64,000 nucleotides of DNA, from the NCBI RefSeq assembly GCF_902506415.1, contig NZ_LR733275.1:5184176-5248175 (forward strand), read 5' to 3'. The notes below the pieces were generated by a model, which did not search any database, was not told the DNA's origin, and saw nothing but the letters and a program-made list of their open reading frames with translations. The translations under genes were made by a program, and so were the position numbers. Below are positions 3,062-41,909 of this stretch, piece after piece; within the stretch, counting starts at the first letter, position 1, and the number at the start of each line of letters is the position of its first letter. Source of the DNA: Massilia sp. 9I. GTDB lineage: Bacteria; Pseudomonadota; Gammaproteobacteria; Burkholderiales; Burkholderiaceae_D.

Positions 3062-3508
3062 TCAATGCCGCGTCTCCGACCGATCCGGCTCCGACGGCGA
3101 CGAAATCTCATCCAGCGCCCCTTCCGCCGCCCCCTGCGTCTTGGTGGCGATATCCCCCAGCGACACGATCCCCACCAACTGCTTGGAGTTCTCGTCGATC
3201 ACCGGCACGCGCCGGATCTGCACGTCGCCCATCTTGTCCAGCACCTCGTCGATGTCCTGGTTGCTGTAGCAGGTGCGCACGTCGGTGCTCATCACGTCGC
3301 CGACGAAACACTGGTCCGGCGACTGCCCGGCCGCCACAGAGCGCACCGTGATGTCGCGGTCGGTGATCATGCCGACCAGCCGGTCTCCGTCGCACACGGG
3401 GATCGCGCCGACGTTGAGGTCATCCATCATCTGCGCCGCGCGCTGCACGGTCTCCTTCGGAGAGATCGTTTGCACATTGGGCGTCATCACTTCACGAATC
3501 GTTTGCAT
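3062..3508 (-). CDS. CBS-domain pair protein
   Basis: 148 residues consisting almost wholly of two CBS domains (about 8-62 and 73-130). The first has the VGAIPVCDGDRLVGMITDRD signature, the second RRVPVIDENSKQLVGIVSLGD. Stand-alone CBS pairs bind adenosyl nucleotides and act as energy or redox sensors; no effector domain is fused and the partner is unknown. The ATG at 3508 is preferred to the upstream ATG at 3523 because AGGAGA lies 7 bp before it. The tail (TQGAAEGALDEISSPSEPDRSETRH) is polar and probably disordered. It is convergent with maiA and separated from it by the REP pair. Confidence 0.85.
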   Translation of the reverse strand: MQTIREVMTPNVQTISPKETVQRAAQMMDDLNVGAIPVCDGDRLVGMITDRDITVRSVAAGQSPDQCFVGDVMSTDVRTCYSNQDIDEVLDKMGDVQIRRVPVIDENSKQLVGIVSLGDIATKTQGAAEGALDEISSPSEPDRSETRH

Positions 3509-3631
3509 GGCTGTCTCCTGCATGGTTGGTCGAAATGAAGAAAAATCATGCCTTGAAATGCCAAAGGCGGACGCTAGATTGACGGTGGGAACCAGCTACA
3601 ATCGCGCCTCCTGTCGACTTGTACTTCCGCC

Positions 3632-4408
3632 ATGTCCAATCACCCAATTCCAGCCCCCATACTCGCCGCCCTCGACCGTGCCGACGCCTCCTGGCGCCCG
3701 ATCCTGGAAGCCGGCCTGCAGGCAGTCGCCAGCGCCGATCCTGCCTACCTGCCGGCGCTGGCCGCCGACGACTACCTGCCGACGGAGTGCCGCATCTTCG
3801 CCGCCTTCGCCCAGCCATTGGAGAAAGTGAAACACGTACTGGTGGGGGAGGGCCCGTACCCGCGCGCCGAAAGCGCGACCGGGGTCTGCTTCATGGACGG
3901 GGCGGTCGGGGAGCTGTGGTCGGAAACCGGCCTGTCGAAGCCGGTCAACCGCGCCACTTCGCTGCGCAACTTCATGAAAATGCTGCTGGTGGCAAACGGA
4001 CAATTGCAGGCAGAAGACACTGGCGGCAGCGCCATGGCCCCGGTGGCACAGCAGGCGCGCACGCCCGGCTCGGGCGTCACCCAGACCCTGGCCCAGCTCC
4101 AGGACAGGCTGCTCGGCCACGGCTTCCTGCTGCTGAATGCAGCCCTGGTGTTCCGCAAGCACGTCCCGCCCGCCATCGATGCGCGCGCCTGGCAGCCTTT
4201 CCTCCAGACCGTGCTTGCGGCCCTGGCAAGCCAACCGCAGCCGCCGACCCTGGTCTTGTGGGGCAAGATCGCTGAACAATTGAAAAAGCTGCCGGAAACG
4301 GCGCGCCTGCCGCAGATCCATGCCGAGCACCCGTATAACCTTTCCTTTATCCAGCACAAGGGTATGCAGGAGCTATTTGGACCGATGGAATTGCTGCGCC
4401 TGCGATAG
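3632..4408 (+). CDS. uracil-DNA-glycosylase-like protein with altered motif A
   Basis: 258 residues. The protein follows the UNG (family 1) layout: motif A region VLVGEGPYPRAESATGVCF (70-87), a central LLLNAALVFR, and a C-terminal HPYNLSFI in the place of HPSPLS. In UNG, motif A reads GQDPYH and its Asp activates the water that attacks uracil. Here the equivalent residue is Gly (GEGPYP, 72-77), while the motif B His is kept. GEGPYP is intermediate between family 1 and the GEAPG of families 4 and 5. The fold assignment is fairly secure; uracil excision is not. It lies alone between the divergent CBS gene and iscR. Confidence 0.72.
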   Translation: MSNHPIPAPILAALDRADASWRPILEAGLQAVASADPAYLPALAADDYLPTECRIFAAFAQPLEKVKHVLVGEGPYPRAESATGVCFMDGAVGELWSETGLSKPVNRATSLRNFMKMLLVANGQLQAEDTGGSAMAPVAQQARTPGSGVTQTLAQLQDRLLGHGFLLLNAALVFRKHVPPAIDARAWQPFLQTVLAALASQPQPPTLVLWGKIAEQLKKLPETARLPQIHAEHPYNLSFIQHKGMQELFGPMELLRLR

Positions 4409-4486
4409 GCGGCGGAAGTGAAGGCGGGGGAGGGGGCAGGCCCCGCGGTTTTGGGGGCCTCCAAGACAAGCGAGTCAGGATTTGCT

Positions 4487-4511
4487 ATACTTGACTAAAT
4501 CATTCAACTAA
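4487..4511 (+). promoter_or_regulatory. IscR type 1 operator at the isc promoter
   Basis: The 25 bases starting ATACTTGACTAAATCATTCA match the E. coli type 1 IscR consensus (ATASYYGACTRWWWYAGTCRRSTAT, from memory) at 23 of 25 positions. The mismatches are the G at position 17 and the final T. It lies about 95-120 bp before iscR. Overlapping promoter elements are visible: an extended -10 TGC-TATACT (4483-4491) or, alternatively, a -35 TTGACT (4491-4496). Either placement would let [2Fe-2S]-IscR block transcription, giving the usual autoregulation of the isc operon. Confidence 0.8.
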
Positions 4512-4604
4512 TCGGGTTATTCAATAAGCGACATCAACAGATTGTTTGTTGCGCCGCACCGATGTTTGGATAAGAGCAATATTTTAACACTAACCGGGGT
4601 TGTG

Positions 4605-5084
4605 ATGCGTCTGACCACCAAAGGCCGTTTTGCTGTTACCGCGATGATCGATCTTGCCCTGCGCCAGGGCAATGGTCCGGTTACGCTGTCGGGCATCAGC
4701 CAGCGCCAGGCCATTTCGCTGTCGTACCTGGAGCAACTGTTCGGCAAGCTGCGCCGCCACGAGATCGTCGAGTCGATCCGCGGCCCCGGCGGCGGCTATA
4801 GCCTGGCCCGCTCGGCCGACAAGGTGACGGTGGCCGACATCATCATCGCGGTCGACGAGCCGCTCGATGCCACCCAGTGTGGCGGCAAAGAAAATTGTCA
4901 CGGCGCCGACGCTGCTTCCGGTACCCGTTGCATGACCCACGAACTGTGGACCACGCTGAACGCCAAGATGGTCGACTACCTCGATTCGGTCTCGCTGCAA
5001 GACCTGGTCGACCAGCAGAAGCAGAAAGAACAAAACGTCGTGGTGGTGCACCGTGCCGCCGCCAGCGCCGCCGTACAAAACTGA
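4605..5084 (+). CDS. iscR: Fe-S cluster-sensing repressor IscR
   Basis: 159-residue Rrf2-family regulator. The winged helix covers about 1-75 (MRLTTKGRFAVTAMIDLAL; SYLEQLFGKLRR; GPGGGYSLAR). The cluster-binding loop has Cys92, Cys98 and Cys109 plus His112 in CMTHELW, matching the three-Cys/one-His [2Fe-2S] site of E. coli IscR. The holo form represses isc; the apo form acts on other targets. The ATG at 4605 gives the conserved N-terminus; the earlier in-frame ATG at 4542 would add a non-conserved extension. It is first gene of the isc operon, 20 bp before iscS, with its own operator upstream. Confidence 0.96.
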   Translation: MRLTTKGRFAVTAMIDLALRQGNGPVTLSGISQRQAISLSYLEQLFGKLRRHEIVESIRGPGGGYSLARSADKVTVADIIIAVDEPLDATQCGGKENCHGADAASGTRCMTHELWTTLNAKMVDYLDSVSLQDLVDQQKQKEQNVVVVHRAAASAAVQN

Positions 5085-35507: not shown

Positions 35508-36368
35508 ATGACCACGAAGGATTACGCCGCCCGCATCAGCCAGCTCATCCAGGAACACCAGGCCGAAATCGGCGCGGAATGGATTGCGCAGCTGGAAGCG
35601 CTGATCGTGCGCGGAACATCCAGCTCGAAAGAACAGCTGCGCAAGCATTGCGAGCAGTTCCTGGCCGCGTTCGGCGTGGCCACCCGCGCGGGTGAACTGG
35701 ACAATATCGACCACCGTTCGTGGGACGAGGTGCGCGACCTGCTGGCCGAGATCTCGTCGACCCGCGCCAGGTCGGGATCGACCCCGAGCGAGACCGCGAC
35801 TTTCGTCTTTTCGCTGAAGCAGGCCATGTTCGCGCGCCTGCGCGCCGGTTTCGACGGCGACGCCGAAGGCATGGCCGCAGCTTCGTGGACCATCAGCACT
35901 CTGCTGGACAAGCTGGGCCTGTACACCATCGAAGTGTTCCAGAAGACCAAGGACCAGATCATCGTGCGCCAGCAGCAGGAGCTGCTCGAGCTGTCGACGC
36001 CGGTGGTCAAACTGTGGAACGGCATCCTGGCGCTGCCGCTGATCGGCACCCTGGATTCGGCCCGCACCCAGGTGGTGATGGAAAACATCCTGCAGAAGAT
36101 CGTCGACACCGGCGCCATCATCGCCATCATCGACATCACCGGCGTGCCGACCGTCGACACCCTGGTGGCCCAGCACCTGATGAAGACCATCGCCGCCGCG
36201 CGCTTGATGGGCGCCGACTGCATCATCAGCGGCATTCGCCCGCAGATCGCCCAGACCATCGTGCACCTTGGCGTGAACCTCGAGGACGTGGTCACCAAGG
36301 CCACCCTGGCCGACGCCTTCATGGTCGCGCTCGAGCGCACCGGCACCACCATCGTCGCCAAGTCGTAA
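35508..36368 (+). CDS. rsbR: stressosome scaffold/sensor RsbR
   Basis: 286 residues. The N-terminal sensory domain (about 5-150) is helical and most like the RsbRD-type N domain. The C-terminal STAS domain (about 162-280) has STPVVKLWNGILALPLIGTL, IIDITGVPTVDTLVAQHL and ISGIRPQIAQTIVHLGV. Candidate RsbT phosphorylation positions in the two conserved segments are T181/S184 and T218. RsbR and RsbS form the large stressosome that sequesters RsbT until stress. The ATG at 35508 follows AGGA; upstream in-frame codons from 35454 look non-coding. First gene of a six-gene operon, 11 bp before rsbS. Confidence 0.9.
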   Translation: MTTKDYAARISQLIQEHQAEIGAEWIAQLEALIVRGTSSSKEQLRKHCEQFLAAFGVATRAGELDNIDHRSWDEVRDLLAEISSTRARSGSTPSETATFVFSLKQAMFARLRAGFDGDAEGMAAASWTISTLLDKLGLYTIEVFQKTKDQIIVRQQQELLELSTPVVKLWNGILALPLIGTLDSARTQVVMENILQKIVDTGAIIAIIDITGVPTVDTLVAQHLMKTIAAARLMGADCIISGIRPQIAQTIVHLGVNLEDVVTKATLADAFMVALERTGTTIVAKS

Positions 36369-36379
36369 GCGAAACCGCC

Positions 36380-36736
36380 ATGGAACGCATTCCTATCCTG
36401 CGCATGGGCGACCTGCTGCTCGTGACGATCCAGGTCGACATGCACGACCGCCTCGCCATGCAGCTGCAGGACGACCTCACCGAGCGCATCGTGAGCGACG
36501 GCGCCAAGGGCGTCCTGATCGACATCTCGGCGCTCGACCTGGTCGACTCCTTCATCGGCCGCATGATCAGCAACACCGCCGCCATGGCGCGCGTGCTCGA
36601 CGCCCGCACCGTGGTGGTCGGCATGCAGCCGGCCGTTGCGATCACGCTGGTCGAGCTGGGCCTGACCCTGCACGGCGTGAAGACCGCCCTGAACGTCGAA
36701 AAGGGCATGGCCCTGCTGGGAAAGAATTTTAACTAA
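36380..36736 (+). CDS. rsbS: stressosome STAS protein RsbS
   Basis: 118 residues, a single STAS domain. The segment IDISALDLVDSFIGRMI holds Ser57, equivalent to the serine phosphorylated by RsbT in Bacillus RsbS (DSF motif), and GMQPAVAITLVELGL is the conserved second signature. It co-assembles with RsbR and holds RsbT. This gene is hidden inside a longer shadow frame, but start, length and one-base overlap with the next gene (TAATG) are clear. Confidence 0.92.
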   Translation: MERIPILRMGDLLLVTIQVDMHDRLAMQLQDDLTERIVSDGAKGVLIDISALDLVDSFIGRMISNTAAMARVLDARTVVVGMQPAVAITLVELGLTLHGVKTALNVEKGMALLGKNFN

Positions 36737-37203
36737 TGAACGGCGCGCATATCGACGCAGTCCTGTTCGACACCGCGCTGCTGGATCGCCACCGCCAGCA
36801 CCGGACCGCACGCGTGACACTGCGCCTGAAGTCGGACGAGGACGTTGTAGGCCTGCGCAAGCAGGTGCGTGAGCGGGCGGTGGCCATTGCCCTGTCGCTG
36901 GTCGACCAGACCAAGCTGGTTACCGCCGCGAGCGAGCTGGGACGCAATACGATCAAGTACGGCGGCGGCGGCGAGGTCCACCTCGACAGCCTGGCCGACG
37001 GCATCCGCCAGGGCATCAGCCTGCTGTTCGTCGACGCCGGGCCGGGCATCCCCGACATCGAGAGCGCGCTGCGCGATGGCTTCACCACCGGCGGGGGCCT
37101 TGGCCTCGGCCTGGGCGGTTCGAAGCGCCTCGGGGACGAATTCGACATCGACAGCCGTCCGGGAGAGGGCACTGCCGTGCTGGTGGTGAAATGGAAGCGC
37201 TGA
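36736..37203 (+). CDS. rsbT: stressosome switch kinase RsbT
   Basis: 155 residues, GHKL-type serine/threonine kinase. The N box SELGRNTIKYGG (67-78, Asn71), the G1 box DAGPGIPD (100-107) and the glycine-rich lid GGGLGLGLGGSKRLGDEF (119-136) are intact, so it should bind ATP. It phosphorylates RsbS and RsbR on stress and is then released. It is about 20 residues longer at the N-terminus than Bacillus RsbT. It overlaps rsbS by 1 bp and the next gene by 13 bp. Confidence 0.9.
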   Translation: MNGAHIDAVLFDTALLDRHRQHRTARVTLRLKSDEDVVGLRKQVRERAVAIALSLVDQTKLVTAASELGRNTIKYGGGGEVHLDSLADGIRQGISLLFVDAGPGIPDIESALRDGFTTGGGLGLGLGGSKRLGDEFDIDSRPGEGTAVLVVKWKR

Positions 37204-38213
37204 TCAGTTCACTTACACCTCAGCAGGTGTTCGTGATCAACCATGCGAGCGACGTGGCGGCGGTGAGGCGCAGCGGCCAGAAGCTGGCCGACGCCCTCGG
37301 CTTCGACGAGACGCGCGCCGGCCAGCTGGCGCTGATCATCACCGAGGCCGCTACCAACATCCTCAAGCACGCCGGCGAGGGCGAGATCCACATCGGACCG
37401 GCGCAATCCGGCGCCGGCGCGGGGGTCGACGTGCTGGCGGTCGACAAGGGCCCCGGGATCGCCGACCTCGACGCCAGCCTGATCGATGGCGTGTCCACTG
37501 CCGGCACCGCGGGCACCGGCCTGGGCGCGCTGGGCCGTTTGTCCGACGAATTCGACGCCTACACCCAAGCTGGCGCCGGTTCCGCCTTCTTCATGCGCCT
37601 GTGGCGCGACATGCCGGCGCCGCAGCCTTGCGGCGTCGAGGTGGGCGCCTTGTGGACGCCGATGGCCGGCGAAGAAGAATGCGGCGACGGCTGGGCGGTA
37701 CGCTGCGACGGCTACGGCGCCACGCTACTGGCGGCCGACGGGCTGGGTCACGGTCCGGAAGCGGCGCGCGCCGCTGCCGCGGCCATCAAGGCGCTGGAAG
37801 CAGGCAAAGCCTGCGGAGCGGGTGAGCTGATGCAGGCCGCGCACGACGCCCTGCGCCCCACGCGCGGTGCGGCGCTGGCGACCGCGCGCATCGACTTTGA
37901 GGCCGATGAGCTGCGTTTCGCCGGCGTCGGCAACATCGCCGGCTGCGTCATCGACGACAAGCGCCGCGCCCTGGTGTCGCACAACGGCATCGTCGGCCAC
38001 AACATGCGCAAGGTGCAGGAGTTCCCGCTGCCCTTCGGGCCGGGCGCGGTGTGCATCATGCATTCGGACGGCATCCAGACCCAGTGGGACCTGGACAAGT
38101 ACCCGGGCCTGGCAGGGCGCAGCCCGGCCCTGATCGCGGCGGTCCTGATGCGCGACTTCATCCGCCGCCGCGACGACGCCATGGTGCTGGTCGTGCGCCG
38201 CCACGGGAGCTGA
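37191..38213 (+). CDS. fusion of an RsbT-like ATPase domain and an RsbX-like phosphatase
   Basis: 340 residues. The N-terminal half (about 10-137) is a second RsbT-like GHKL domain with an intact N box (ITEAATNILKHAG, Asn56), G1 (DKGPGIAD, 85-92) and lid (GTGLGALGRLSDEFDAY). The C-terminal half (about 148-338) is a PP2C/SpoIIE-type phosphatase with DGLGHG (183-188), AGVGNI, MHSDGIQTQW and RRDDAMVLVV, where RsbX has its metal-binding Asp and Gly. RsbX resets the stressosome by dephosphorylating RsbR and RsbS. One polypeptide thus carries predicted kinase-like and phosphatase modules. It lies between rsbT and the histidine kinase. Confidence 0.88.
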   Translation: MEALISSLTPQQVFVINHASDVAAVRRSGQKLADALGFDETRAGQLALIITEAATNILKHAGEGEIHIGPAQSGAGAGVDVLAVDKGPGIADLDASLIDGVSTAGTAGTGLGALGRLSDEFDAYTQAGAGSAFFMRLWRDMPAPQPCGVEVGALWTPMAGEEECGDGWAVRCDGYGATLLAADGLGHGPEAARAAAAAIKALEAGKACGAGELMQAAHDALRPTRGAALATARIDFEADELRFAGVGNIAGCVIDDKRRALVSHNGIVGHNMRKVQEFPLPFGPGAVCIMHSDGIQTQWDLDKYPGLAGRSPALIAAVLMRDFIRRRDDAMVLVVRRHGS

Positions 38214-38214
38214 C

Positions 38215-39597
38215 ATGAGCCTGCACCGCATCCTCAACCTTGCCCTCGACAGCGACCAGGACGTGGTCGCGGTGCGCCAGCGTGCGCGCCAGGTCTCGGA
38301 GCTGCTCGGCTTTTCTCAGCAGGACCAGGTGCGCATCGCCACCGCCGTGTCCGAGATCGCGCGTGCCGCATGCCACCAGGGATCAGGCGGCCGTGCGGCC
38401 TTCCTGCTGGGCCGCAACCTGGGCCGCTTGCACCTGGAGGTCACGATCCATCCCGGCATGGGCGCGCGGCATTCGCCCGGGCCGGCCGCGCTGGACGAGG
38501 GCTTCAGCCGCACGCTGCCGGAACTGGCGCTGATCAGCGCGCACCGCCTGATGGACTCCTGCGAGGTCGAGCCGGAGCAGGGTGCGGTCACCGCGGTCAC
38601 CATGCGCAAGGCCCTGCCGCCGCACGTGATGATCGACAGCGCGCGCCTGGCGGAGATGAGCACGCGCCTGGCCGGCAGCCCGGTATCGAACACGCTGCAG
38701 GAACTGGAACAGCAGAACCACGAACTGCTGGCCACGCTGGCCGAGCTGCGCGAGCGCCAGGAAGACCTGCTGTCGCTGACGCGCGAACTGGAAGACACCA
38801 ACCGCGGCATCGTCGCGCTGTACGCCGAGATCGAAGACAAGGCCGAGCGCCTGCGCCGCGCCGACGAAATGAAGTCGCGCTTCCTGTCGAATACCAGCCA
38901 CGAGCTGCGTACGCCGCTGTCCTCGATCCGCGCCCTGGCGCAGCTGCTGCTGGACCGCATGGACGGCGACCTGACCGGCGAGCAGGAGCGCCAGGTGCAG
39001 TTCATCGCCAAGGCCGCCAATGACCTGTCGGACCTGGTCAACGACCTGCTCGACCTGGCCAAGATCGAGGCCGGCAAGGTCGACGTGCAGCTGGCGCCGG
39101 TGGTGGTCGACAACCTGTTCCGCGCCTTGAAAGGCATGATGCGGCCGCTGGTCGACGAAGGCCGGGTCGAACTGGTTTTCGAGCCGAGCGAATTCACCGA
39201 CGCCTTCGACTCCGACGAGGGGAAGATCTCACAGATCCTGCGCAACTTTATCTCCAATGCGCTCAAGTTCACCGAGCGCGGCGAGGTGCGGGTCTCGGCC
39301 AGCTACGATGCGCAGCAGGACACGATCGCGTTTGCGGTCGTCGATACCGGGATCGGCATCAGCCCCGACAATTTGCAACTGATTTTTGAAGAGTTCAGCC
39401 AGATCGAGCATCCGCTCCAGCGGCGCAGCAAGGGGACTGGCCTCGGCCTGCCGCTTTGCCGTAAACTGGCCGAACTGCTGCATGGACGCGTCGACGTGGC
39501 CAGTACAGTCGGCGCGGGATCGACCTTCACGCTGACCCTGCCGCGGCGCATGCCCGAGCACGACCTGCAGCCAAGCCTAGACGGAACCGAATCATGA
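38215..39597 (+). CDS. histidine kinase with degenerate RsbT-like N-terminal domain
   Basis: 460 residues. Residues 1-136 align by eye with RsbT (SEIARAACHQG as N box; HRLMDSCEVEPEQGAVTAVTMRK as the C-terminal strands). But the N-box Asn is Ala51 and no DxGxG box is present, so it should not bind ATP. A coiled coil (about 155-215) leads to HisKA with His229 (SNTSHELRTPLSSIRA) and a normal HATPase (about 335-450: RNFISNALKFT, DTGIGISPDN, GTGLGLPLCRKLAE). No membrane segment, so cytosolic. It is 1 bp after the phosphatase and overlaps the hybrid gene by ATGA. The N-terminal domain probably docks on the stressosome. Confidence 0.9.
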   Translation: MSLHRILNLALDSDQDVVAVRQRARQVSELLGFSQQDQVRIATAVSEIARAACHQGSGGRAAFLLGRNLGRLHLEVTIHPGMGARHSPGPAALDEGFSRTLPELALISAHRLMDSCEVEPEQGAVTAVTMRKALPPHVMIDSARLAEMSTRLAGSPVSNTLQELEQQNHELLATLAELRERQEDLLSLTRELEDTNRGIVALYAEIEDKAERLRRADEMKSRFLSNTSHELRTPLSSIRALAQLLLDRMDGDLTGEQERQVQFIAKAANDLSDLVNDLLDLAKIEAGKVDVQLAPVVVDNLFRALKGMMRPLVDEGRVELVFEPSEFTDAFDSDEGKISQILRNFISNALKFTERGEVRVSASYDAQQDTIAFAVVDTGIGISPDNLQLIFEEFSQIEHPLQRRSKGTGLGLPLCRKLAELLHGRVDVASTVGAGSTFTLTLPRRMPEHDLQPSLDGTES

Positions 39598-41498
39598 AAG
39601 CCAATTCGACCCTGATCCTCAACGTCGACGACAACGACGGCGCCCGCTATGCCAAGAACCGCATCCTGCAGGGGGCGGGCTTCGAAGTGGTGGAGGCGAC
39701 CAACGGCACCGATGCGCTGGAATTGGTAAAGCGCCTGAGCCCCGCGCTGGTGCTGCTCGACGTGAAGCTGCCCGACATTAACGGCATCGAGGTCTGCCGC
39801 CGCATCAAGGCCAATCCCGACAGCGCCATGGTACTGGTGTTGCAGACCTCGGCCGCGCTGACCGGCCGCGCCGACAAGATCCGTGGCCTGGAAGGGGGCG
39901 CCGACAACTACCTGGCGGCGCCGATCGAGGCCGACGAGCTGATCGCCAACGTCAACGCGCTGGTGCGCATGCGCCAGACCCAGGTCGAGCTGCGCGACAG
40001 CGAAGAACGCTTCCGCCAGATCACCGACAACATAGACGACGTGTTCTGGATGTTCGGGGTCCCGGACGGCCGCCTGGTCTACGTCAGCCCCGCCTATACG
40101 GACCTGTGGGGCGCGAGCGTGGACGTCCTGCGCGAACGGCCCGACGCCTGGCTCGACGCGGTGCACCTGGAAGACCGCGAGCGCATCGCGCAGCGCTGGC
40201 GTCAGCTGCCGGATGTGCCGCACTACGACGACGAATTCCGCATCCTGGGCCCGGACGGCCGCACCCACTGGGTGCGCGACCGCCTGTTCGCGGTCCGCGA
40301 TGCGCGCGGCGAGGTGTACCGCGTGGCGCGCGTGACCAGCGACATCACCACCCGCAAGGACATGGAAGCGCTGCTGCGCGCGGCCGACCGCAACAAGAAC
40401 CAGTTCCTGGCCACGCTGGCGCACGAATTGCGCAATCCGCTCAGCCCGATCCGCAACGCCGCCGCGCTGCTGGGCTCCACCAGCGAAGGCAGCGGCCCGA
40501 GCGGCGCCGAGCGCCAGGCGCGCGCGCGCGAAGTGATCACGCGCCAGGTCGACCACCTGGCGCACCTGGTGGACGACCTGCTCGACGTCGCCCGCATCTC
40601 GGAAGGCAAGATCGTGCTGCGCACCGAAGAAGTGGACCTGGGCGCGGTGATCCAGCAGGCGATCGAAACCGCCGGCCCCCTGATCACGGCGCGCGGCCAC
40701 CATCTGGACGTGGAATTGCCGGAGCAGCATGTGTGGGTCAAGGGCGACCCGGTGCGCCTGGCGCAGTCGGTCGGCAACCTGCTGCACAACGCGGCCAAGT
40801 TCACTCCCAAGGGCGGCGAGATCCGCGTCTCTGTCAGCCTGGCCGGCAACGAGCGGGTCCAGATCGCGGTGCGCGACAACGGCATCGGCATCGCCGAGGA
40901 CAACCTGCCGCGCATCTTCGGCATGTTCGCCCAAGTGGACGTGCCGCCGGACCGCGCGCCGGAAGGCCTGGGCATCGGCCTGTCGCTGGTATCGCACCTG
41001 CTCGAGCTGCATGGCGGTCACCTGTCGGCGCAGAGCGAGGGCATTGGCATGGGCAGCACCTTCACGGTCGAGCTGCCGCTGCTGCGCGTAAGTGCGCCGA
41101 CGGCCAGCCTGGCGCATTGCGAGACGGGCGACACGGGCGGCAGCGGCATGCGCGTGCTGCTGGTCGACGACAACGTCGACGCCATGGAAATGATGGGCTT
41201 CCTGCTGGCCGAGATGGGCTACGAGACCTGCACCACCTCCGACGCCGCCGAAATCGAAGAGCTGGCCCTGCGCCATCGTCCGCAGGTGATCGTGCTCGAT
41301 ATCGGCCTGCCGGGCATCGACGGCTACGAAGTCGCGCGCCGTATCAAGAAGAACCCGGCGCTGGCCCATATCCGGCTGGTGGCCCACACCGGCTACGGCT
41401 CGCCGGAAGACCGGCGCCGCGCGATGGACGCCGGCTTCGACGCCCACCTGGTCAAGCCGGCCGAGCTGGCGGACCTGGAGCGCGCCCTGAAGGGCTAG
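39594..41498 (+). CDS. hybrid sensor kinase REC-PAS-HisKA-HATPase-REC
   Basis: 634 residues. REC1 (about 5-125) keeps the acidic pair (VDDND) and phospho-acceptor Asp56, but the conserved Lys is Ala (NYLAAP, 105-110). PAS (about 138-258) ends in the RKDMEALL linker; HisKA has His277 (ATLAHELRNPLSP); HATPase (about 385-505) is complete; REC2 (519-634) has Asp569 and Lys in LVKP. No DNA-binding or enzymatic output domain. It can receive phosphate at REC1 or autophosphorylate and relay within itself to REC2. Last gene of the stressosome operon; its downstream target lies elsewhere. Confidence 0.92.
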   Translation: MKANSTLILNVDDNDGARYAKNRILQGAGFEVVEATNGTDALELVKRLSPALVLLDVKLPDINGIEVCRRIKANPDSAMVLVLQTSAALTGRADKIRGLEGGADNYLAAPIEADELIANVNALVRMRQTQVELRDSEERFRQITDNIDDVFWMFGVPDGRLVYVSPAYTDLWGASVDVLRERPDAWLDAVHLEDRERIAQRWRQLPDVPHYDDEFRILGPDGRTHWVRDRLFAVRDARGEVYRVARVTSDITTRKDMEALLRAADRNKNQFLATLAHELRNPLSPIRNAAALLGSTSEGSGPSGAERQARAREVITRQVDHLAHLVDDLLDVARISEGKIVLRTEEVDLGAVIQQAIETAGPLITARGHHLDVELPEQHVWVKGDPVRLAQSVGNLLHNAAKFTPKGGEIRVSVSLAGNERVQIAVRDNGIGIAEDNLPRIFGMFAQVDVPPDRAPEGLGIGLSLVSHLLELHGGHLSAQSEGIGMGSTFTVELPLLRVSAPTASLAHCETGDTGGSGMRVLLVDDNVDAMEMMGFLLAEMGYETCTTSDAAEIEELALRHRPQVIVLDIGLPGIDGYEVARRIKKNPALAHIRLVAHTGYGSPEDRRRAMDAGFDAHLVKPAELADLERALKG

Positions 41499-41520
41499 CA
41501 CGGCTGAGTTAAAATGGCAG

Positions 41521-41572
41521 CAGGAGGACGGCCTCCCCCAGCGTGGGAACAATAACCGGGACGGCCCGGGTT
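41521..41572 (+). promoter_or_regulatory. guanidine-II riboswitch (mini-ykkC)
   Basis: Two small hairpins with identical ACGG loops: GGAGG-ACGG-CCTCC (41523-41536) and CCGGG-ACGG-CCCGG (41556-41569), joined by a 19 nt linker. ACGR loops in a paired two-hairpin array are the diagnostic feature of guanidine-II riboswitches. The second hairpin ends 8 nt before the AAGGAG ribosome-binding site (41578-41583) of a Gdx/SugE gene, the classic target. The likely mechanism is exposure of the ribosome-binding site on guanidinium binding. The array lies just after the stressosome operon stop. Confidence 0.9.
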
Positions 41573-41591
41573 TTCGCAAGGAGAGCCGATC

Positions 41592-41909
41592 ATGGCTTGG
41601 TTGATGTTGGTGTTGGCAGGACTGTTTGAAGTGGTGTGGGCGATCGGGATGAAGTACTCGGCAGGCTTCACCCGGCTGTGGCCTTCGATTATCACGTTCG
41701 TCGGCGCGATTGTCAGTTTTGTGCTGTTGTCCGCTGCGATGCGCAGCATTCCCCTCGGTACCGCCTATACGATCTGGACCGGCATCGGTGCGGTCGGCGC
41801 CTTCGTGGCCGGCGTCATCATGCTGGGCGAGCAGCTCAGTACGATGCGGGTCGTCGCGGCGGTGCTGATCGTGTCCGGGCTGGTGCTGATGAAGCTTTCC
41901 GCTGATTGA
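41592..41909 (+). CDS. gdx: SMR-family guanidinium exporter (Gdx/SugE)
   Basis: 105 residues, four transmembrane helices. The central Glu13 (LAGLFEVVWAIGMKYSAGF) couples proton entry to guanidinium export, and the pattern W-A-x-G-M-K-Y-S-x-G-F marks the Gdx (SugE) branch rather than the Emr multidrug branch. IPLGTAYTIWTGIGAVGAF and GEQLSTMRVVAAVLIVSG follow the family. The riboswitch upstream supports guanidinium as substrate. It ends at a bidirectional terminator. Confidence 0.93.
   Translation: MAWLMLVLAGLFEVVWAIGMKYSAGFTRLWPSIITFVGAIVSFVLLSAAMRSIPLGTAYTIWTGIGAVGAFVAGVIMLGEQLSTMRVVAAVLIVSGLVLMKLSAD

Follow-up and report, generated by a model that had tools for sequence, protein, structure and literature searches.

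In Bacillus subtilis, the stressosome core proteins RsbR, RsbS and RsbT are linked to RsbU, RsbV, RsbW and SigB, with RsbX as feedback phosphatase. Stressosomes joined to two-component genes and lacking SigB are an already published class. In the portions of Heinz 2022 (PMC9237108) on which we draw, globin-type rsbRSTX modules come with eleven downstream architectures, including phosphorelays, with an RsbU_N domain in some and none in most; RsbX is described there as a single-domain protein, and contact of RsbT with the downstream kinase could not be shown in Vibrio. In Vibrio vulnificus, deletion of the core and deletion of the downstream kinase give similar phenotypes, according to the parts of Cutugno 2023 (PMC10014275) cited here. 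Here we describe a six-gene stressosome operon of Massilia sp. 9I, located at positions 35508-41498 of a 64,000-nucleotide stretch of DNA (contig NZ_LR733275.1, positions 5,184,176 to 5,248,175; hereafter the window), in which a histidine kinase (HK) begins with an RsbT-like domain. Judging from sequence, we lean by a small measure towards a reading in which two extra copies of RsbT arose and were fused to effectors, so that HK would be seated on the RsbR/RsbS core through an RsbT-derived pseudokinase dock.

Like the V. vulnificus rsbRSTX-VvD1-VvD2 locus, the operon places two-component genes after those for RsbR, RsbS, RsbT and a phosphatase of RsbX type, with neither SigB nor RsbU. In V. vulnificus, RsbR carries a haem globin and RsbX is described as a single domain, whereas here RsbR has an RsbRD_N domain that lacks a conserved His, and both RsbX and HK are joined to domains of RsbT type, in HK as an RsbT-like N-terminal domain (N-domain). 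Core proteins, phospho-acceptor positions and feedback phosphatase are shared with B. subtilis, but we found neither RsbU nor a SigB-type gene in the source genome, and here RsbT domains are found on RsbX and on a kinase. The histidine kinases and diguanylate cyclases that bear RsbU_N beside stressosome genes, such as Moorella MtG, likewise couple a non-sigma effector through an N-terminal domain (excerpts of PMC9237108 and PMC12143880), but RsbU_N is a target of RsbT, whereas the N-domain here is an RsbT homologue. An earlier note on this DNA, made from its letters, had pointed to two-component genes in place of the SigB branch; these are indeed seen here, but their novelty was overstated, as the arrangement has been published for Gram-negative stressosomes (PMC9237108, PMC10014275).

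The operon's six genes follow one another head to tail on the + strand: rsbR (35508-36368), rsbS (36380-36736), rsbT (36736-37203), a gene for an RsbT::RsbX fusion (37191-38213), the HK gene (38215-39597, RsbT-like N-domain, HisKA and HATPase_c) and a hybrid kinase gene (39594-41498, REC1-PAS-HisKA-HATPase-REC2 in Pfam). An 11 bp gap separates rsbR from rsbS, rsbS and rsbT overlap by 1 bp, rsbT and the fusion by 13 bp, and HK and the hybrid kinase by 4 bp; a 1 bp gap lies between the fusion and HK. The earlier note had the coordinates, domain calls and 1-13 bp spacing of this gene set right. It had also described RsbT-type domains in three successive genes, and these are present, but it missed that the third, in HK, has lost its ATP boxes, so that a docking domain is the better reading; this third domain falls below the cut-off in Pfam.

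The HK N-domain (38215-38640, residues 1 to ~140) scored 19.6 bits against a Pfam cut-off of 27.4 (E 9.5e-4) because its ATP-binding boxes are gone: Ala51 replaces the N-box Asn, and the G1 box is absent. Its relatives were collected by scanning GTDB genomes with an N-domain-only alignment, which matched at 261 places; from these, the 80 most like the window domain were taken as the named loci, so ATP-less forms are over-represented, and such a scan cannot find loci without the N-domain. HATPase_c_2 was matched by 39 of 76 aligned N-domains at E 0.01 (best 1.4e-13). The N-box Asn is absent from 64 of the 81 HK N-domains (80 loci plus the window), the window among them, a group defined by that absence and including three members with an alignment gap at the position. 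The G1 Asp is missing from every one of the 64 (Glu stands there in one), and the Arg19- and Arg23-equivalents, Ser46 and Glu47 are present throughout the group. The other 17 retain the Asn, 16 of them with the Asp, and both Arg. In this lineage of Massilia/Duganella-type operons, the N-domain probably can no longer bind ATP.

The retained residues lie at positions known for partner contacts. PMC12143880, in the sections used here, implicates Arg19, Arg23 and Asn24 in the binding of RsbU by B. subtilis RsbT, and in those of PMC7340262, Arg23, Ser48 and Glu49 of RsbW contact the STAS protein RsbV, Glu49 touching the phosphorylatable Ser56 of RsbV. N-domain residues R21, S46 and E47 fall opposite RsbW Arg23, Ser48 and Glu49 (the 6m37_A alignment starts at model residue 3 and chain residue 5; chains of the RsbV/RsbW complex were assigned to RsbW by title and length), and a profile alignment places R21 with R20 of SpoIIAB.

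An AlphaFold2 model of the N-domain (pLDDT 85.2, pTM 0.82; residues 87-98, approximately the ATP-lid region, below 50) is closest to a chain of the RsbV/RsbW complex (6m36_I, Z 14.9, rmsd 1.6, 103 residues; Foldseek E 4.5e-7 for the first structural match). RsbW/SpoIIAB-type kinases reach Z 12.3-14.9 against 7.0 for the best histidine-kinase catalytic domain, with UsfX and SpoIIAB at about 13 (13.2 for SpoIIAB), a SiaB-SiaC chain at 9.8 and LvrC at 9.5. A clean gap in Z between RsbW-type chains and histidine kinases was rejected, as the last two bridge it in VIA-align. The model is that of a partner-switching-type GHKL fold in which the ATP boxes are missing. A PDB sequence search with the N-domain alone gave no match at E 1, nor at E 0.01 with a profile. 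Vibrio fischeri SypE, in the part of its description seen here, likewise has an RsbW/RsbT-type domain in the same chain as two-component domains, and Leptospira LvrC (titled 'response regulator', Z 9.5) is alike by fold match only; both are response regulators, whereas the domain described here forms the N-terminal part of a histidine kinase within a stressosome operon.

The N-domain is under purifying selection, with ratios of nonsynonymous to synonymous change (dN/dS) of 0.06-0.29 in nine close pairs, similar to those of the RsbT::RsbX gene (0.01-0.28). Across the 64 ATP-less sequences, 29 positions are at least 97% conserved, though residues 36-44 lie inside the search pattern and conservation there is partly forced. 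A tree built from R, S, T and X unites the ATP-less operons in a single clade (support 89) that lies next to L063 and L064, whose boxes are intact (L numbers are our labels for loci and matches); because of this placement, the tree suggests that the ATP boxes were lost once. The three RsbT-type domains fall in separate groups in a FastTree domain tree, where some rows labelled K are RsbT::RsbX fusions: the N-domains group together (0.995) and adjoin the RsbT encoded in those operons (0.78), apart from the fusions. In a stressosome operon at L156, an RsbT-like domain sits on a kinase of HisKA_2 rather than HisKA type (3483-4721) and groups with RsbT, possibly an independent RsbT fusion. A correlation of missing ATP boxes with absence of a REC in the same kinase was considered and dropped: among the 48 of 51 family kinases that were typed, 18/18 without the Asn lack a REC, but so do 7/30 with it. 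Cys116 of HK (38560-38562) is invariant in the 64 ATP-less N-domains and is Phe in RsbT (80/80), and judging by this pattern it may add a redox input.

The core genes upstream have the composition expected of a stressosome. RsbR, the predicted sensor and scaffold, contains RsbRD_N (residues 10-112, PF14361, E 3.5e-24) and STAS (residues 170-270, PF01740, E 1.1e-12), and its top PDB matches are RsbR-type chains of stressosomes (E 4.2e-34). Listeria phospho-acceptors are T175 and T209 of RsbR and S56 of RsbS; S184 and T218 of RsbR here, 34 residues apart and invariant in 47/47 sequences, match these RsbR positions, the first being Ser here and Thr in Listeria. A motif-based reading of the sites as T164/T211 was dropped in favour of S184/T218 on this 34-residue spacing. 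In a wider set (n=60) the T218 position holds Thr in 52, Ser in 5 and Ile in 3. RsbS is a lone STAS protein (Pfam E 1.1e-7) with Ser57, of phospho-acceptor type and set in VDSFI, in 60/60. RsbT, a GHKL ATPase and putative serine/threonine kinase (HATPase_c, E 7.1e-10), retains its N-, G1- and G2-boxes intact, together with the two Arg that bind partners; its N-box Asn, G1 Asp and Arg19- and Arg23-equivalents are each present in 80/80 (79 loci plus the window). By these features, the three genes are a stressosome core in one operon: a sensor-plus-STAS RsbR, a lone-STAS RsbS and a GHKL RsbT. No invariant or near-invariant His occurs in the RsbR N-terminal domain across 47 sequences, and haem-based oxygen sensing by RsbR was rejected, as the protein has RsbRD_N and no conserved His.

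In the RsbT::RsbX fusion, an RsbT-like domain (~37191-37610, HATPase_c_2, E 2.9e-11) precedes a PP2C/SpoIIE phosphatase domain (~37611-38213, SpoIIE, E 4.2e-10), and the PDB matches are led by 3zt9 (labelled SpoIIE, E 5.6e-18), followed by RsbX 3w40 (E 7.2e-9). The metal-binding Asp residues of a PP2C phosphatase of RsbX type (DG.GHG, SDG and DD) are invariant in 60/60. Its RsbT domain keeps the N-box Asn, G1 Asp and Arg19-equivalent in 80/80 (again 79 loci plus the window), with the Arg23-equivalent in 1/80 (L221), the opposite of the pattern in the ATP-less N-domains. In a wider set, the Arg23-equivalent occurs in 2/33 fusions accompanied by RsbT (L156, L221) versus 10/14 two-gene modules without RsbT. 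These fourteen modules (L135-L144, L158, L164-L166) pair RsbT::RsbX with RsbR, with RsbS and RsbT not found in the 5-9 kb read, and are possibly a minimal relative of the stressosome. At L095, L098, L099, L172 and L173, rsbX follows a pair of neighbouring rsbT genes that are not fused, possibly a stage preceding the fusion.

Downstream, the C-terminal part of HK has the makeup of an orthodox histidine kinase, with HisKA (38869-39075, PF00512, E 2.4e-20), HATPase_c (39214-39549, PF02518, E 8e-29) and H- and N-boxes. Among the 79 named relatives that have this part, the N-box pattern is present in 79 and the H-box pattern in 71, the eight exceptions being six Steroidobacter-group loci, L241 and L221. 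In REC1 of the hybrid kinase (39594-39983), the conserved Lys is replaced by Ala, Glu or Gln in 78/78 and the phospho-acceptor Asp is kept in 78/78, window included; REC2 keeps both residues in 71/71. REC1 is, by these residues, an atypical receiver conserved across these operons. The earlier note had taken the downstream genes for two-component proteins, in agreement with the Pfam assignments of HisKA/HATPase_c and REC-PAS-HisKA-HATPase-REC. The flanking genes of the 80 relatives, clustered roughly from home-made gene calling and with several clusters being antisense frames of operon genes, included no widely conserved linked regulator gene; in some distant relatives (L146, L248, L282), a stand-alone REC gene follows the hybrid kinase. 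The genome has 14 Hpt matches, which only make phosphotransfer to a remote regulator possible. We infer, as the earlier note did, that the signal would leave the complex by such phosphotransfer.

We searched the source genome (5.53 Mb, completeness 100) for a SigB branch. RsbU_N had no match at E 0.1, with the B. subtilis control detected; none of eight SigBFG matches was above the cut-off, six of them scoring 94-128 bits, as expected of other sigma-70-family genes; and no second SpoIIE-type phosphatase was above the cut-off, with only the operon's RsbX passing among two matches. A sigma-B cascade elsewhere in the genome was rejected on these results. The earlier note had stated that RsbU, RsbV, RsbW and SigB are not encoded in its gene set and had named a cascade elsewhere, with its own RsbU, as grounds for refuting its reading; the genome-wide search did not refute that reading. 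Two weak RsbT/RsbW-like matches outside the operon (L004, L005) are by eye ordinary histidine kinases. Other weaker matches that likewise looked unrelated by eye were a Stp-type PP2C (L007), a SulP-type transporter (L008) and a small STAS gene (L011), a judgement that did not take in the STAS matches L012-L014.

The operon recurs widely in the family. At E 1e-15, an RsbT::RsbX query matched 113 of the 294 genomes sampled from it, some of them through the RsbT or phosphatase part only, and 59 loci were chosen from these 113. The order R-S-T-TX-HK-hybrid is the same in 51 of the 59 (including L083, with its hybrid kinase split in two frames), confirming that the gene order was not chance. The remaining eight are unfused R-S-T-X modules, three of which (L095, L098, L099) have a second unfused RsbT. 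At E 1e-30, the fusion profile matched 20/369 class genomes and 30/398 phylum genomes, counts that include the source genome itself and matches by the phosphatase part only. Six of 40 class and phylum stretches (L134, L145, L146, L151, L153, L154) have R-S-T-TX with RsbT-like::HK; the hybrid kinase was not found in the L145 stretch.

The best 80 loci come from Massilia, Telluria, Duganella, Rugamonas, Pseudoduganella, Noviherbaspirillum, Herbaspirillum, Steroidobacter, Peristeroidobacter and several metagenome-assembled genomes, the top N-domain match being Massilia sp. IC2-477 (92%; the source genome's own records were possibly excluded). Stressosome genes accompany the N-domain in every one: RsbT::RsbX is present in 80/80, and R, S and T in 79/80, the sole exception, L242, starting within the fusion at a contig end. 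R, S, T and the fusion share one strand in 77/80, with L221 and L241 partly on the opposite strand, and REC1 of the hybrid kinase is present in 77/80, the exceptions being L210 and L246 (contig ends) and L221 (rearranged). In a sample of the order, the N-domain profile matched 14/300 genomes at E 1e-10, some via RsbT itself. Four non-family stretches from this sample comprise the full operon at L282 and L284, the kinase side only at L283 (a contig end), and R-S-T-X plus a kinase and another RsbT at L285. At L280 (2918-5421) and L281 (4240-6743), which belong to the same genus, a second RsbT-like::HK is divergent from a lone RsbR, with a further kinase; RsbS, RsbT and RsbX were not found in these stretches.

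The guanidine-related genes beyond the operon appear unrelated to it. A Guanidine-II riboswitch (37.3 bits, gathering 32) lies 22 bp past the stop codon of the hybrid kinase, followed by a gene for a 105-aa transporter named by eye as SMR-type (41592-41909); together (41520-41909) they are most likely an ordinary guanidine exporter.

We suggest that the operon works as follows. The three RsbT copies seem to have divided the work: RsbT proper would be the stress-triggered kinase of the core, and RsbT::RsbX the resetting phosphatase, brought to the core by its own RsbT targeting domain. At rest, unphosphorylated RsbS and RsbR would hold both RsbT and HK. Under stress, RsbT would phosphorylate the core at RsbS Ser57 and RsbR Thr218, whereupon RsbT and HK would be unseated and HK activity would change; the hybrid kinase would receive phosphate from HK on its REC domains and relay it to an unlinked target. 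In a more tentative form, which we hold with less confidence than the dock itself, the stressosome would be a His-Asp scaffold in which HK takes RsbT's seats, RsbT evicts the whole phosphorelay in one stroke by phosphorylating the RsbR/RsbS shell, and catalysis (RsbT, RsbT::RsbX) is split from docking. The analysis itself shows the gene anatomy, its conservation across the family, the missing ATP boxes beside retained contact residues, purifying selection, a predicted fold and a search that found no SigB branch; from there we infer the docking of the N-domain, the direction of docking and the phosphorelay.

Several observations weigh against docking by an ATP-less RsbT copy. RsbT Arg23 is reported for binding RsbU rather than STAS proteins, and only three of six named RsbW contacts match in the N-domain, with Asp42 becoming Arg40, Lys44 becoming Ala42 and Tyr118 not mapped. 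Support for grouping the N-domain with RsbT is modest (0.78). Many relatives keep ATP boxes in their N-domains (the Asn in 17/81, and in 30/48 typed family loci), so the loss of ATP binding is not required for the basic wiring, and HK is without an N-domain in the fusion-bearing operons L147-L150, L152, L155 and L161, where coupling must therefore work otherwise. The pairing of RsbT-like::HK with RsbR and no RsbT at L280 and L281 is what docking predicts. A third genome does not fit that prediction: the 9 kb stretch at L279 holds an RsbT-like::HK and shows no RsbR.

Two alternatives give the N-domain another partner. It could be a dimerisation domain for HK, with free RsbT or RsbT phosphorylation regulating the kinase. 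RsbW dimerises via helix 1 and strand 1 (parts of PMC7340262), and the conserved D16-R25 stretch of the N-domain lies on predicted helix 1; helix-1 conservation could therefore serve dimerisation, which also counts against the dock. On the other side, Ser46-Glu47 lie on helix 2, have STAS-facing counterparts in RsbW and are kept in 64/64 though the ATP boxes are absent, and the N-domain travels with RsbR and RsbS; we consider dimerisation unlikely. The N-domain could also bind RsbT itself as a heterodimer, so that released RsbT turns HK on, as RsbT does with RsbU via RsbU_N in Bacillus. RsbU_N proteins lie downstream in other stressosome operons (portions of PMC9237108 and PMC12143880), RsbT needs some partner in this genome, as RsbU_N was not found, and RsbW, of the same fold group, dimerises. 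Yet the L280 and L281 stretches combine RsbR and RsbT-like::HK with no RsbT gene, and the N-domain duplicates the partner face of RsbT instead of complementing it, leaving us with equally little confidence in a heterodimer.

The remaining alternatives deny the N-domain or both kinases a role. The missing ATP boxes and the low-confidence lid region (residues 87-98) of the model would fit a decaying remnant without function, but this is largely refuted by the dN/dS values (0.06-0.29 in the nine pairs), and the 29 positions that reach at least 97% conservation across the 64 sequences, partly forced at residues 36-44, also speak against it; we regard it as highly improbable. In the other, a classical stressosome would use an unlinked sigma factor or cyclic di-GMP (c-di-GMP) enzyme as output, with both kinases as bystanders. 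The six sub-cut-off SigBFG matches (94-128 bits) could be read this way, and stressosomes of Vibrio, Chromobacterium and Herbaspirillum are linked to c-di-GMP genes in the portions of PMC9237108 cited here. The overlapping genes, the identical six-gene order in 51/59 family loci and the failure to find RsbU_N or a second SpoIIE-type phosphatase above the cut-off all stand against bystander kinases, which we find improbable.

The RsbT-domain HK fusion, the loss of its ATP boxes and the RsbT-RsbX fusion were not found in the literature searched, which took in neither the Pane-Farre surveys of 2005 and 2017 nor Figure 3 of Heinz 2022, where architectures of this kind may be depicted. How Gram-negative stressosomes relay signals without SigB is the question that this architecture addresses, and what is new here, within that literature, is how the parts are joined. 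If true, an HK with an RsbT-derived dock would be a concrete answer to that question. It would also be a case of a bacterial serine-kinase fold becoming a pseudokinase adaptor via subfunctionalisation within one operon.

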